A DNA stretch of 64,000 nt, taken from assembly GCA_019636475.1 (NCBI GenBank), contig JAHBXN010000002.1:496001-560000 (forward strand), given 5' to 3'. Under the pieces are notes generated by a model, which was given only the letters and a program-made list of their open reading frames with translations, was not told the origin of the DNA and did not search any database. Source of the DNA: Phycisphaerae bacterium. Its GTDB lineage: Bacteria > Planctomycetota > Phycisphaerae > UBA1845 > UTPLA1. Each line of letters opens with the position of its first letter. Positions within the stretch are counted from its first letter, which is position 1. The position numbers were made by a program, and so were the translations under genes. This document shows, piece after piece, positions 39,369-48,300 of the stretch.

Positions 39369-42300
39369 TCACGGACAAGGGCTGACTCCGTTGAAGGACA
39401 ACGACCAGGAATTCAGATTTCCGGTATCCGATGCGGCGTTATCTGAAACGGTGAGGATCCACGTCCCACTCACTTGCTCGCCATTGAAAAGGGCAAGTAC
39501 GCTGTTCGACGTATAGTTCGGTGGCGAGGTCAGATTGGGCTGGCACTGCGTCTCAATCGGTACGGATCCCTCGTCGTCGAGCACCACATTCACCAGATTA
39601 CCCGCATTACAACCGAACGGACTCCCGACGTGGCAGCCGGTTGGCGACGCGACACCCATTCGCGCAATCAGGTTCACCGAAGTGCCGGTATCCAGATGTT
39701 GCAGGATCACGCACAGATCGCCGACCCACGTGTGCTGAATGTTGAGTGTCACGTTCACGTCAGACACGATGGAAGGATCGGGCACGAACATCGCATCCGA
39801 GACACCGGTCGGCGAATTGTCCGGAATGGGCAGCGCCGGGAAGCGCGAGAAAGTGATTCCCGACTCGAAGCAGATACTGCCATCACCATTGTAGGAGCCG
39901 CCGCTCAGCAGACAGGACGCCGGATCCATGGATTCGCTGCAGACGCCGCCCGGGTAGCAGCACGCGCCGGCATTGCTGGAGCATGTCACGATTCCGCAGT
40001 TTGTTCCGGCGCCCTGGAATACGCCACCGCCGCCCGCGCACGAAATCTCATCGAATCCGTCACCGCAGGACAGGCCGAAACAGCACGCCCCCGGCAATGC
40101 GGGCGAACAAGTCACGTTCAAAACACCCGAACCTGTGGCGGAGCTGCCGACAAAACTACCAAGGCTGATCAGATAGGTCTGTCCGGCTGCCACGCTCGCG
40201 GTGGCCGTCGAATGCCATGAACCGCTGCCGCCACAGGGATTGTTCGTGTCATCATCGTTGCATCCCACAAGGGCACTGAAGAGAGAACTGCAATCCGTTG
40301 TGGCGTAAATTGCGATCCGCGTGTCGAAGTCCGCCGATCCGCCAAGCTGCTCGCATGTCGTGGCGGTCAACGTTCCCGAACAGCCTGCCGTGTATTGGAA
40401 CCACACATTCTGCTGTACCGGACCAGCGAATTGACACTCTCCGGCCGTATGCGACGGCCCGTCCGTCGTCGCGCTGATCGTCGAAAACGGATGTGGTCCT
40501 TCACCGATCAGCAACGGAGTGAAGCAACTGTCGTTCGGTGGCGCAATGGAGCATGGATTCGTGCCGCAGTTCAAGCTGGCGCTCCAGGTCCCGCCAAGAC
40601 CCGCACAAACCACAGCGGTCACATCGCTGCACGAATTGCCGCCATTGTGGCAACAACGTCCGATCGGATCCGAACAGGAAACTCCGTTGTGAGAGATCGA
40701 CAGTTCAAACGTACCCTGGCTGCTTGACCAGCCGCTGACACGGATCAAATAGACCACGCCAGGCTGAGAGCAGAACGAGACGGTCGATTTCGTACTGCCT
40801 GAAGGACAGCTCGGCGACGCATCATCATTGCCGGCCACGCAGATCGGACTGACACAACTTCCGCTGAAAACCTCCAGCATCGTGTCGAATGTCGTCGCGG
40901 GGCTGCACGTGGAAATCGTGATGGTCGTGCCCGTGCCGACGATCGAATACCAGACGCCCTGATTCGGCGTCGAGACGCCACATGGCGGCGGCGACGGATC
41001 ATCGGTCGCGCCGACGTTCGTGCCCATGGTGACGGACGGCACCGGGAGCGGCGTAGCCGAACCGCAGTCATCATTCGACTCGCACTGTGGACAATCCGGC
41101 GCACGGACGCAATGGTCGTGCGGCGCCTGCCCGAATGACGAATGGCAGACTTCCTCACAGCAGGGTGTCGGCTCATCCGAATATCCCGGCGCCCAGCCGC
41201 CACTGCAGGTCGGTCCCGAAATGGGATTGAGTGTCCACGGAGCACCCGAGCTGCCGATCTGCATCGGCGGAATGCCTTGAGCGCCTGTGTCGAAATTGAC
41301 CGTGGCGGGCGGACCGACGCGAGAGAACGCGAACAAAGGCTGCACGAAGATGACTGAGTCAAACGTACCGCCGGTTGGTGTCAACATCGTGGCCGTCAGT
41401 GAACCCGGCGGCGCGGGAATCGGCGAGAGTTGAACCAGAACGTTCCACTGCTCGGGATTCTGACCACCATTGTAAGTCACTGTGATCGGCTGACAGCTCT
41501 GCAGACTCAGCGCGACCAACTGAATCGGAACGGTCGCGCTCGATGGGGGCGGCTGCTGGAAGCACAGATCGCCCTGACGCTGGATGAGCGTGTCCGTCCC
41601 GAACGGACCGCTGGGCTGCCCGCCCAGGATCACGGTTCCTGTGAAGGGATCGGATCCGGGTCCGAAGAAGTTATTCGGCAACGGAAGGTCAGCAAACGAA
41701 TAATTCGATCCTCCGCACGGAGTCACCCAGCAATCAATCCCCGCGGGAATGCAGATCGATGTCGGACATGTCACGAGACCGCAGTTGGAGCCGTCGCCCT
41801 GATAGATACCGCCCTGCGCGGCACAACCGGCAGGTGACGACCCGTCAATGCAGGTTCCATTGATCAGACAGCACGCACCGGCGATCGGCACGCAGTTTGA
41901 TCCGGCGCACGTCGAGTTGCCACCCTGGAAACTGCCGCCAAGGCCGCCGCACTGTCCCGAGGTCTGGTTGTCAATGCAAGCGCCGCCGGGCAGACAGCAC
42001 GCCCCGGTCGGCTCGCACTCGCCACACCCGGCAGCCTGGACGCAGTGATCGTGCGGCGCCGTGCCATAGGACGAGTGACATTGTTCCGAACAACACGTGT
42101 CCCCGTCACCAATGCCGGGCACAAAACCCGGGCTGCATGCGGACACCGGAATTGCAGGCGTGATCGCCCACGGCATGCCGGTTCCGTCGAGTTGCATGAC
42201 GGAAATGCCCGACAGTCCGGTGTCCAGAACGCGCACGTTGCCCGGATTACCGGCTTGTGTAAACGTGAATCGTGGCTGGATGAAGAAAGCCGTATCAAAC

Positions 42301-45300
42301 GTTCCACCGTTCGCGGTGGTCTTGGTCACGGTCATGATACCCAGCGGCGCCGGCACGACCGACAGACCCACCGCCACATGCCATTGCTGCGTACCCCCGC
42401 CGTTGTAGTTCACCGTGATCGGCGCGCAGCTCTGAAGACTCAGGGCCACAATCTCAATCGGAACGGAATCCGCCGAGGGCAGCGGCTCGGAGAAGCAAAG
42501 ATCGGACACGCGCCTGACAATCGTATCGGTTCCGAACGGACCAATCGGGAGGCCGCCCAGAATCACCGATCCAGTAAACGGCTCTGAACCCGGATCGAAG
42601 AAGCCGGCCGGAATCGGATAATCCGAGAATTCGTACAGCGACGTGCCGCACGGCGTGATCCAGCAGTCCTCCCCCGGCGGAATGCAGCTGTACACCGGAC
42701 AGGTGACGCCGGAACAGGTCGTCCCGTGACCTCGATACTGACCGCCAAGTGAGAGGCAGTCCGTCGCGGTGACGCCGTCATTGCACGTCGCATCCGGCAG
42801 ACAGCAAGCGCCCAGCGAAGGCGTGCAAACCACCTGGTTCACCAGCGCGGCAACGAAGGGCTGTATATCCACGCCATCGTCAAAACCGGAGCCGTCCATG
42901 TCCGCACAATCGTCCACTACGTTGTTCAACAGCGCCGTGACGAACAATGGAATATCTCCGAGTTCAACCGCCGAGTTGCCGGACAAATCGCCCGGGCAAT
43001 CACAGGTCGTCACCGGCACATAGATGGGCGGCCGAACGGTATGCCGCGACGGCAGCGCGGGATCATCATTCACCCACTCGACCGGCACCTGGGACGAAGG
43101 CACACCGGGCGTCGCCTCAAGCACGCCGGGTACGAACGAACCGTTCGAGGCCGTGACAAGATTCAGCGACGGATGCACCGTATGCACGTAAGGCGTATTG
43201 ACGGCCGTAAAGAGATGCGGCGGAAGTCCTTCCGCGCCGGTGTCAAGCGTTACGACCGAGCCGGGGTTCCCGACGCGTGTGAATATCAGAAACGGCTGCA
43301 CCGGAAGCGTGCTGTTGAAGGTGCCGCCGTTCGGATGGGTCTTCTGCGCAGTCAACGACCCGAGCGGCGTGACCGTCGGCGAGAGCGCAACACGAACGTC
43401 CCATTGTTGCGGGTTGTTTCCGCCTCCGAACGTCACCGTGATCGGCTGAAGCGACACGAGATTGAGCTCAACCAGCTCAATTTCAACCGACCGGACCGTT
43501 CCGACGGGATCATCCGCCAGCGACGGGTCGGCTGACCGCTGCACCAGCAGGGACGCATTGCCGTAGCGCGCCGGATCGATCGGCAGGCCTGTCAGATCGA
43601 TGCGACCGGTAAACGGGTCCGACCCCGGACCGAAAAAGCTCGCCGGGATGGCAGGGTTTGATCCGCCGGTGCCGAAATCGACATAGGTCGTTCCGGGTGC
43701 CGATGGCGTGGCATGTGGATCAGTTGGTGGAAGCTCACCGCCGATATCGAGGGCATCGACGTTGTCGGTCGGCTGCAATCCCATCGCGCCGGCCGGCGCG
43801 TACATCAGAATCACACCGTTGAACGACGTCATGAAAACATCACCGGGTGAGTAGATGGCCGCACCGAAGGGCATATTCGGATTCAGTCCGGCGAGCGACG
43901 GTGAACCCGGGGCCAGCGTGAACAGCGCGATATCGAAATTCGGCTGCATGATGCCGTTCGGCCCCCCGTTGTCCAGTAGAACCAGTCCGTCCAGATCATC
44001 ACCCGGCAGCAGGCCGATATCGCCGACGCCGCTCGCATAGATGGCGAAGGCGAGCGGAGGGCCGCCGGGTGGAGGAGACACGAGTATGTCATCCGGCGTG
44101 ACCAGGTTGCCCGGATCATTGGGCGTCGAACCGCCCGGATACGGATTCGGACGGTTGTGCGAAGGCGACATGGACTTGATCGAGAAGAAGGCGTACCGCG
44201 TGCCGCCGTCGGGGATGCCGTCCAGATTGGCGTCGATCACGACGCCGTCGCTGACTTCGAGCGCATCGAGATTGTCTTCCTCGCAGATCGGATCATCAGC
44301 ATTCCATGCTTCTCCGAGGTATTCCGTCGCGGCGTCGAATCGGAACGCTCGAATTTCAACCCGGTAGTTCTGCTTCCGGGGCGAGATGAATGCGACCACC
44401 TCGTAGGCGTTATTGAACGAGCTGGACCAGGCAATCAGCTGACCGGTGCAGTCATAGACATACACATCCAGATCCGCGGTGAGCGTATCGCCGGTGACAT
44501 TCTGGTGATTCGTTCCGCCGGAAACGGTGTGGGTCGACCAGGCGATGGCGTAGCGGAACTGCTCGCCCGCATCCGCGCTGACGATCCGGTTCCGCGGAAA
44601 ATCGCCGGCAACAACAACCTTCCGGTCGTAGTGACCGGCATTCATGATCTCGTGACCCTTGTCAATCCAGATCGTTCCGGCGCCTTCCATGCCGTCCCAA
44701 TTCACCGCGCCGAGATTCTCAATCGCATTGCCATAGGTGTTGCGCTTGGCCGACGCAATCGTGATGGCCTTCGTGGTTTCCGGCCAGTTCGCCAGCGAGC
44801 CGTCCATTGACAACATGTTCGCGATGTATCCCGCCACGTGCGGCGTTGCAAAGCTTGTTCCCGACACGCCCGGCGGCGGCGACACCGCATTGGCCGGCGG
44901 AGTCGGGTGGGTGGACATGATGTTCGTGCCCGGAGCGGAGACCTCCGGCTTTTCGTAGTCGCCCGCCAGATCGCGATGGCAGGAAAACTCCGCTCGAATG
45001 TCGTCAGCCAGCGCCGCGGTGTTCAGATCGTCCGTCGCCCCGACCGTGATCGCATTGTATGCCAGGCCCGGGCTGGTCACTTCGCACCGCCAGATGGCCG
45101 GCGTCGAAACATCGTCCCCCCCAGGAACCGTATCGATGATTCCGTTCGGGCCGGCGCCGATCAGGTCCTGGCCGGGCGCGGCGGCCGCCCCGTTGGCGAC
45201 GATCTGGACGTCGTCACCGGCTGCCACCGTGTCGCACGTCCCGTTTCCACCGCCCGGTTCGTAGATCGATCCGCATTCGTTCGACGCCGCAACGGCGACG

Positions 45301-48300
45301 GCGACAAAATGCTCATACACGATGTGATCGACGAAGCGGTCGCTGACATCGAAGGTCAGATCGCTCACCGGTTCGCCGATGCTCATGTTCAGAATCTTTG
45401 CATTGTTGGTCAGCGCCCATTCCACCGCAGCCGCGAAGTTGGCCACGTTGCCCGGGATGCCATAGCGACGCACATCATCGCCGCCGACTGTGGTTTCAAG
45501 CTGAGCATTCGGCCCAAGCCCGATCAGTTGCTGCCCGGGCGCGGCGGCCGCGCCGTTGGCCACCATCTGAGTGTCATCGCCCATAGCGGCCGTGTCGCAG
45601 GTTCCGTTTCCGCCGGCGATCGGCTCGAAAATGCCGCTGCGCGAGCCGGCCATGTTGCCGCTGAGGAGGGAGACGCTCGGCGCCATGCCCTCTCCCATGC
45701 CCGCTGGAAATGCCGGATCGCCCGCGTCGCGGCGCGCCGCGATTACGCCAGAGACCCACGTCGCGTGATTGTTGCCGCCGGTGTAGTTTGTAATCGTGAT
45801 ATCGGCGGCTCCGACGGCCCCGAGGTTTGCATTGGCCGCATTCAGCCAGTTGCCGCCGGCGAACGTCAATGGCCCGCCCGTGGTGTAGACGATCGCCAGT
45901 AACGATGCGCCCGCGTCGACACAGTTGGCGCCGAACTGAAGGTCGATCGTATTCGTCACGGCGGTATTCGAAGGAACACTGGGCGCGCCGCACGCCGGGG
46001 CGTTGGCTTCCGGTGCCACAAAGACAAAGTACGGCTCGACGAACACGTTGCCGCCCGAACCGGCAAATGTCACTTGCAGCCGTGCGGCGGCCGCCCCCGT
46101 TGCATTGTTAACTACGATTTGAAACCCCCGCCGAAACGAAACACCGGCCGTATGATCAAGATATTGATTCGCGAAATCGGCGATTCCGCTCTCGATCACA
46201 CCCACGACGATCCCGGCGCCGGTGTGCCCGTTAAACTTCATCACCGAGTTTTGAACCGCCGAATTCGATATGCCGAGTTTGTCCACCAGCTCGGTTGATT
46301 CATACACTCTGTCGATGCCGGGTAGCGCCGCAATCTGTCTGATCTGAGCCGCCGTACCCGTCGCACACACCAGCGGTGACAGGCGACCCACATAGTCAAG
46401 TTGTGCTCCAATCGCCGCAATGGCGTTCGCTGTCGGCGCGTTGCTCGCCTCATAAATCTTTGACCGCTCGACGAGAAGCATCTCGCGCGCGGCATCAGCC
46501 TGATCGCCGACGGGACGGCCGCCGTCCAACTCGAATCCCTGCGCCCGTACCGAATCCGCGGCCCCACTCGTGTCCGGCGCGTCCAGCCAGACAGCCACCG
46601 CAATCACGTCATCGCTCTTTGCGGTTTGCAGTCGCTGTGCAAGCCGGTGGTTCAGTTTTCCGTAGATTGCGTTGTAGGCGTCTGACTCCTGCTTTTGCGC
46701 AGATGCCGTGTCGACAGGCGTGCCGCTTTTGTCCAGTGCCACGCCTACGACCTCACCCGATTTGCGGTCGATCACTTTCGCCAGCAGCAGTTCGTCCTGA
46801 ATTGTGGGAAGCATGAGCACCGACGTTTGCAGCACTTCCGCATCGGCCTTTGCGATTCCCGACGCCGCGACGATCTCGTCCTTCGCCTCCAGATCTTTGC
46901 CGATACCCGCCGGAATAATGGGCGGGCCGAGCGACAGGGCGCCGCCACCGCCGCCGCCCGGATTGGAGACAAACGCGCCCGGCTGACACAATGCCGAGTG
47001 CCGATTCGCCGGCGCTTGTAGCCCCAGATCGATTTCGTCGTGGTATATCCGGTTCGAACCGGGCGGAGCCGCCTGCGCAAGTAGAGGTGTCGGCGGAATC
47101 AACGGGTTCACAGGCCAGCCCGGCGGCGGAAACGGTCCGAATTTCGGTGAAATGTAAATGTCGCCGGCCGCTTCATTGCCCGGGTCACCCCCACCGTTGC
47201 TCGGCACGACCCCGATTCCTCCGATTGCCGCCGCCTGCGGCGAGAGAATTGAATGAAACCGAACAGCCGACCCGGCCGCACCCAACGCAAGCGGATCGAC
47301 GCTGAACAGAAGCGTATCGCCGCGATCTCGGCCAAACGAGAGCGCATCCATGTTGTCGCGCGGCACCAGTCCGAGTGACCCACTCACTCCGCCGGGCGGC
47401 GCGGGCGACGGATTCGGCGCCCCGGGGTTCGGCGAATACGGTCCCCGATAGGGGCCGACTCCCGGCGCAGCACGAAGCCCCAGTGCCGCTGAGAAACGAT
47501 CCACATTGGTCATGTCCGGACCAACGCCAAGCGTCTTTCCAGAAGATTGAAAGATCTCGCCCTCGGTCGCATAGCCCCAGGCACCCTGTCCCGTGGCCAT
47601 TCCCAGCGCAAACACATCGTTCGGCGGAGCATGACCCAGAGCGCCGCACGGCCCCGGAATCAGCAAGCCCTCTGCAAAGCAATCCACCGAGAAAACGAGC
47701 GGCCGCTTCCGCGGAATCTGCGACAGATAAGGCGGTTCGATATTCTGTACGCCGTGGCCGCCCTCTTCGATCCAGCCCACGAAGCAACCAGTCAAGCGAT
47801 CAAAAAGCATCACCCGCCCTTTGATGCTATGGGTGTGGATATAAGTGCTTCCCGCGGGCGGCAGCGATGTCAGGCCATTCGCCTCGACTGTCAGCGCCTC
47901 GGCATTAAACAACGTCAGTCCGTTGGGCGGAGCGACTGACGCCGGAACATCAATCTCAAAGTAGATATTAAAGAAGCTGTCCGCGCCGCCGCCGCCAAAG
48001 CCAAACGCGCCGCCGCGCGATTCAACTTCGCCGTATGATGCCGGCGAAGCCGGTGCCGAAGCGCCCGCGCGAAGCGTCCAACCCGAACCTGTCAGGAGCA
48101 GGTTCATCATGCGCGTGTGAATCTCGTCCACGCCGGCCCCGCTGTTGAAACCGGCGGGAAACGGCAGTCCGATCGTCACATCGTCCACCGCTCCGGCCGG
48201 ACCGCCCGCGCACGCACCAGCGCCCATCGGCCCCGACGGATCAGTCGCCTGCGAGTGCGGCGCGCTGCGCGCAACACAGGTCGGCCCTTGCATCGTGATG

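Follow-up and report, generated by a model that had tools for sequence, protein, structure and literature searches.

A recurrent module of about 50 residues is inserted twice in the S8 domain of a secreted planctomycete subtilase

Results

The window analyzed in this work, a 64,000-nucleotide stretch of DNA from a Phycisphaerae bacterium (contig JAHBXN010000002.1), codes for a secreted multidomain subtilase whose S8 domain harbors two related segments (Table 1). These segments are inserted copies of a protein module that recurs in other host proteins and is maintained by selection. In a fuller reading, which includes the role discussed below and which we hold with good but not full confidence, both represent one portable extracellular module, some 50 residues long, that is old, shuffled among genes and kept for the sake of the protein. 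The family is missing from Pfam, NCBIfam and PDB, and it would belong to a known kind, that of portable extracellular domains.

Table 1 Features of the host gene, in coordinates of the window
Feature	Position	Strand	Basis
Host gene, secreted multidomain subtilase of 3066 aa	39369..48569	-	ORF, Pfam, hydrophobic run
Peptidase_S8 domain, aa 784-1284	44718..46220	-	Pfam PF00082, E 2e-23
Glu793, at the position of the catalytic Asp	46191..46193	-	Motif alignment by eye
Additional stretch between Asp/Glu motif and His motif, aa 820-925	about 45795-46112		
Catalytic His935 (NNHATWVSG)	45765..45767	-	Motif alignment
Module copy 1, aa 980-1033, between SLLSGNMAGSRSG and RRYGIPGNVANFAAAVEWA	45471..45632	-	Pair alignment, homologs
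Oxyanion-hole Asn1097 (AASNECG)	45279..45281	-	Motif alignment
Module copy 2, aa 1102-1154, between AASNECGS and STPAIWRCEVTSPG	45108..45266	-	Pair alignment, homologs
Catalytic Ser1239 (GTSFATPH)	44853..44855	-	Motif alignment
Diverged repeats in the C-terminal half of the host	39369-43500		

Two related segments in an S8 domain

The host protein is composed of an N-terminal hydrophobic, signal-like stretch, the S8 domain, a long C-terminal part and a P-proprotein domain (residues 3025 to 3059 in Pfam). The S8 domain scores 83.5 bits against PF00082, for which the cut-off is 21.8. A phmmer search of PDB sequences with this domain returned nothing at 1e-5. His and Ser of the Asp/His/Ser triad are present, and Glu793 replaces the Asp, in the context VIESG where homologs read VIDTG or VEDDG. 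The protein is thus an S8 family member by descent, whose activity is uncertain given this Glu residue, as the substitution may make the protease inactive or unusual.

Two other parts of the host protein stand out. The Asp/Glu and His motifs are separated by an additional long stretch that is not found in the S8 homologs that we aligned, has no Pfam match and is unrelated to the module. The C-terminal half contains at least three diverged repeats of about 200 to 250 residues each, which carry Cys-rich units of the type 'GACCL...C', with the P-proprotein domain at the terminus. No relative of the C-terminal part was found in viral contigs, and none of the S8 domain in the plasmid collection.

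An earlier, sequence-only reading of this DNA had described two near-identical segments in the protease domain, and pair alignment and BLASTP bear out both their limits and their likeness. The copies have 39 of 53 aligned residues in common, with one gap of a single residue (73.6 bits, E 3e-25), and 122 of 150 aligned bases. Both contain the motifs GGNGTCDT and VANGAAAAPGQ and end with GGDDV. As had been proposed, both fall in the part of the PF00082 domain bounded by the catalytic His and Ser, copy 2 starting just past the oxyanion Asn; only the numbering changes, His932 and Ser1236 becoming 935 and 1239, three higher, through the choice of start codon. 'Near-identical' is apt for those 39 of 53 residues but not for the age of the copies, which are old (dS 1.71) and whose likeness reflects constraint rather than recent copying.

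The module is a duplicated loop

The consensus of the module, ILAGGNGIANTTAAGDDVQVIPVGTTVAPGTVIIGPGPNGVLDTTPAGDD, comprises about 50 residues, in which a 17-residue loop, GxNGxxDTxxxGDD, occurs twice, its copies being joined by a linker of sequence VQxxPVG...PG. Because residues 1 to 17 and 34 to 50 match each other, with a mean BLOSUM62 score of +2.1 at offset 33 versus at most -0.05 at offsets 20 to 32, the module is itself a duplicated loop. An Asp and a Gly are invariant, A, Q, D and D are near-invariant, and Asn is common. Some hosts contain half modules, or arrays that repeat in tandem every 33 residues or so.

Structure prediction with AF2 on copy 2, using 56 sequences, yielded a model with pLDDT 88 and pTM 0.73, with its first and last strands at residues 8 to 10 and 61 to 63. 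The model strongly suggests a compact fold with adjacent ends, an arrangement that suits insertion into a loop, and the positions of the two terminal strands are such that they would pair with each other. Searches for relatives of known family or structure were negative. The module matched no family of Pfam, NCBIfam or PDB sequences, and when 35 modules were scanned against family models, the only matches were scattered ones of single members, to families unrelated to each other. With the model as a query, Foldseek found no PDB match at E≤0.001, a VIA second look gave Z 2.0, and the viral library returned nothing significant. The missing structural match is not proof of a new fold.

Empty sites in homologs define the insertions

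Searched with its modules in place, the whole S8 domain had no match in the genome contigs. After deletion of the modules from the query, relatives of 32 to 39% identity were found in other planctomycetes, along with one match at 40% in a member of the order. The sequence-only reading had called for a comparison with subtilases lacking the insert, and such homologs exist: all six planctomycete S8 homologs aligned (L205, L206, L209, L210, L212 and L215) lack both modules, and removal of the modules from the window protein brings the flanks into alignment. At the copy 1 site, SLLSGNMAGSRSG/RRYGIPGNVANFAAAVEWA (the slash marks the junction) aligns with QILSANSQTYSD-ANITAATDWS of homologs. At the copy 2 site, AASNECGS/STPAIWRCEVTSPGLAYN aligns with SAGNQGSNCGVGAGPVTSPGLAWN, and module-free homologs read GNQGSNCGVGAGP-VTSPG.

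We take the loop that received copy 1 to be that between strand e3 and helix D of subtilisin; the copy 2 loop follows the oxyanion-hole Asn, and both loops presumably lie along the cleft on its S1-S4 side. The AF2 model of the S8 domain, computed from a single sequence, has a pLDDT of 34, and where the modules would lie with respect to the cleft is judged from alignment and from the known architecture of subtilisins.

Clean empty sites were found in three host families. In the second one, ortholog L109 has no module where six others carry it at the same place, and one of these six, L154 (aa 335 to 436), has two in tandem. In the third, the arrangement DDFESYTPAEYIVGD/module/LSPLHSRF corresponds to an empty TDFESYAPAAKVI/FAQPTYSG. 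In a DUF7927-like protein, comparison by eye also matched a module-bearing domain, interrupted after CDGTPGY, with a module-free sister domain that reads CNGNPGFTNEAQ. The boundaries of the module are common to hosts, with an I-x-E-P start and a GDD end, and the flanks are unrelated.

The module recurs in unrelated, mostly secreted proteins

In the genome of origin, only copies 1 and 2 are significant, weaker matches of E 0.07 to 0.87 being left uncounted. The module is present in 48 of the 114 genomes of the order of the source genome at E≤0.01, and in 6 of 391 in the phylum sample outside the order, where the stricter threshold of E≤1e-5 was applied. Across 84,980 species genomes scanned, 53 module loci were identified. 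These include loci of Phycisphaerae and other Planctomycetota, of Thermoplasmatota, of the gammaproteobacteria Marinobacter, Thalassotalea, Paraglaciecola and Arenicella, and of deltaproteobacterial and myxococcal MAGs, a Nitrospira MAG and a Dysgonamonadaceae MAG (Bacteroidales, Bacteroidota). Outside the order the distribution is sporadic. No relative of the module was detected in phage collections, plasmid collections or viral contigs.

A profile search for recurrence in unrelated proteins had been suggested as a check on the sequence-only reading, and it succeeded. When the modules were masked, the hosts, which are mostly secreted, fell into 17 BLAST clusters, between some of which distant kinship is possible; the window host forms a cluster of its own. 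The largest cluster consists of a TIG/TSP3 protein family; in one of its members, the match to the model of the gliding-motility lipoprotein CglD is well below the cut-off. Other hosts have DUF7927-like repeats or dockerin-like tails, or are Peptidase_M10/GEVED proteins, and the archaeal ones are 'FCGPxAxANC' proteins. By a crude hydrophobicity rule, a signal-like stretch is present in 52 of 65 complete hosts versus 147 of 385 other ORFs, a weak control as the latter include spurious ones.

Variant forms were seen at some sites. Five Thermoplasmatota loci (L168, L161, L175, L180 and L187) carry the module between MPDFDQKQDxW and FCGPxAxANC, and in L180 two half-modules with a different linker occupy this site. 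A diverged short form of about 43 residues (L193, L201 and L068) follows IEWVGV at a conserved site in a large family of planctomycete proteins.

The copies are old and under selection

Comparison of copies 1 and 2 gave a dN of 0.21 and a dS of 1.71, for a dN/dS of about 0.12; a window copy and the module of another host have a dN of 0.18 and a dS of 1.37. The saturation of synonymous sites together with the low dN/dS indicates that the copies are old and have been kept by selection at the protein level. Recent duplication was rejected as the origin of the window copies (dS 1.7). Gene conversion between them is possible.

In a module tree built on 50 columns, in which most forks are open, both window copies group with the L152 module, which belongs to an unrelated host in another genome (SH-aLRT 95). 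Copy 2 is 79% identical to the L152 module and 74% identical to copy 1. These sequence relationships point to, and strongly suggest, movement of the module between host genes, with recombination as the presumed mechanism. Where several hosts have the module at one insertion site, the grouping of modules mostly follows host and site, consistent with vertical descent after an old gain. As many hosts share their module site, much of today's distribution is vertical.

Discussion

The sequence-only reading had considered that the segments might be a spreading in-frame element like those of Rickettsia, or simply loops of an S8 subfamily. The inserted and recurrent nature of the module stands, given the 17 clusters and the empty sites, while the likeness to Rickettsia elements falls, given the absence of a palindrome and the presence of selection. 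A selfish DNA element that inserts at the DNA level and is tolerated in loops would account for single loop insertions in unrelated proteins and for presence or absence among orthologs. We nevertheless regard it as very improbable. Neither inverted repeats at the module ends nor dyad symmetry across the module were found, and RNA folding is no better than that of shuffled sequences (z 0.31 and -0.56). Among the matches listed, no copy lies outside an open frame or contains internal stops, and nearly all the frames are hundreds of residues long. Such an element would also be at odds with saturated synonymous sites and low dN/dS, with a source genome that has only two copies, and with the fetched modules, among which no genome has recent, near-identical copies in genes that are unrelated. 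Module host genes are few per genome.

More improbable still is a duplication private to the S8 domain, the other matches being convergent Gly/Asn/Asp-rich loops. Although the copies are 74% identical to each other and the window host clusters with no other, identity to modules elsewhere rises to 69 to 79% over 47 to 52 residues, with E values down to 4e-18 and the same boundaries. Furthermore, one window copy is closer to the module of another host than to its sister. Had the segments been ordinary subfamily loops, as the sequence-only reading allowed, all homologs would carry both and unrelated proteins neither; what we found is the converse, with homologous subtilases devoid of both and unrelated proteins carrying the module.

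We therefore favor a portable protein module, whose history may be sketched as follows. According to the model, ends that lie side by side would let secreted proteins accommodate the module in their surface loops. Repeated, ancient insertions would have brought it into loops of secreted proteins unrelated to one another, most likely through ordinary recombination and the shuffling of domains, with selection on the protein keeping it in place. The subtilase would have gained it in two loops which, judging from known subtilisins, flank the substrate cleft. Its role there is most likely that of a rigid, probably metal-stabilized cap or binding loop that would narrow access or add an exosite. A duplicated metal-binding loop, the other proposal of the sequence-only reading, is possible, the loop being duplicated and its Asp and Gly invariant. 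As possible Ca2+ ligands, the module alignment offers conserved D, N and G residues; the AF2 model is ligand-free. On the strength of the invariant Asp and Gly, we give metal stabilization of the module nearly even chances. Slightly less probable is that the modules influence access or binding of the substrate, as inserted PA domains do (PMC5177683); a role in access control would be weakened if the enzyme is inactive, as Glu793 may denote.

The main competitor of this role, quite conceivable though less likely than not, is a true inserted domain with a generic job, i.e., a calcium-stabilized spacer or adhesive repeat of the TSP3 or dockerin type that does nothing specific to the protease. The module often occurs beside TSP3 repeats and in tandem arrays, its invariant Asp and Gly and common Asn would fit such a function, and Glu793 suggests that the protease may not be active. 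In the S8 domain, however, it is found within the catalytic fold at two places and not between domains. A broader version of the portable-module reading appears rather unlikely, though worth stating: an undescribed superfamily of very small plug-in domains, pre-folded and with their ends adjacent, may be exchanged among bacterial and archaeal secreted proteins, repeatedly landing in enzyme loops and tuning them, the window protein having paired caps that flank the subtilase cleft.

With the module, nature provides a test case for the way in which folded enzymes can take up small domains and stay intact, and it is a candidate for a ready-made insertion tag. Annotators could also recognize a common part of planctomycete exoproteins that is absent from the family libraries searched.

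Among known systems, Rickettsia palindromic elements end in inverted repeats of 12 bp, form stable stem-loops and occur in intergenic regions and RNA genes as well (PMC2229807). They resemble the module as in-frame units of roughly 50 codons within genes for folded proteins, with empty sites in orthologs, but their inverted repeats, stem-loops and intergenic copies were not seen for the module. Bacterial TSP3 repeats (PF18884) are similarly extracellular and rich in Asp, Asn and Gly, and occur in some of the same hosts; however, the modules do not match them, differ in length and spacing, and are inserted within other domains. PARCEL repeats are amphipathic tandem repeats of 25 residues with dyad symmetry in their DNA, found in membrane-targeted or surface proteins of distant taxa with a patchy, apparently horizontal spread (PMC2996958). 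The module is likewise a short protein unit with a patchy distribution over distant taxa, but it has 50 residues, an offset of 33 residues, a Gly/Asn/Asp-rich composition, single or few loop insertions and no palindrome spanning it. The PA domain is inserted within the S8 catalytic fold, reportedly near the active-site cleft, where it affects substrate access and binding (PMC5177683). The module too is inserted inside this fold, whereas PA is a known family, about 140 residues long in the protein described there, and the module, of about 50, is present twice, at two sites; the PA family model had no match in the host protein or in the 35 modules. The module is closest to inserted PA domains in behavior and to PARCEL repeats in distribution.
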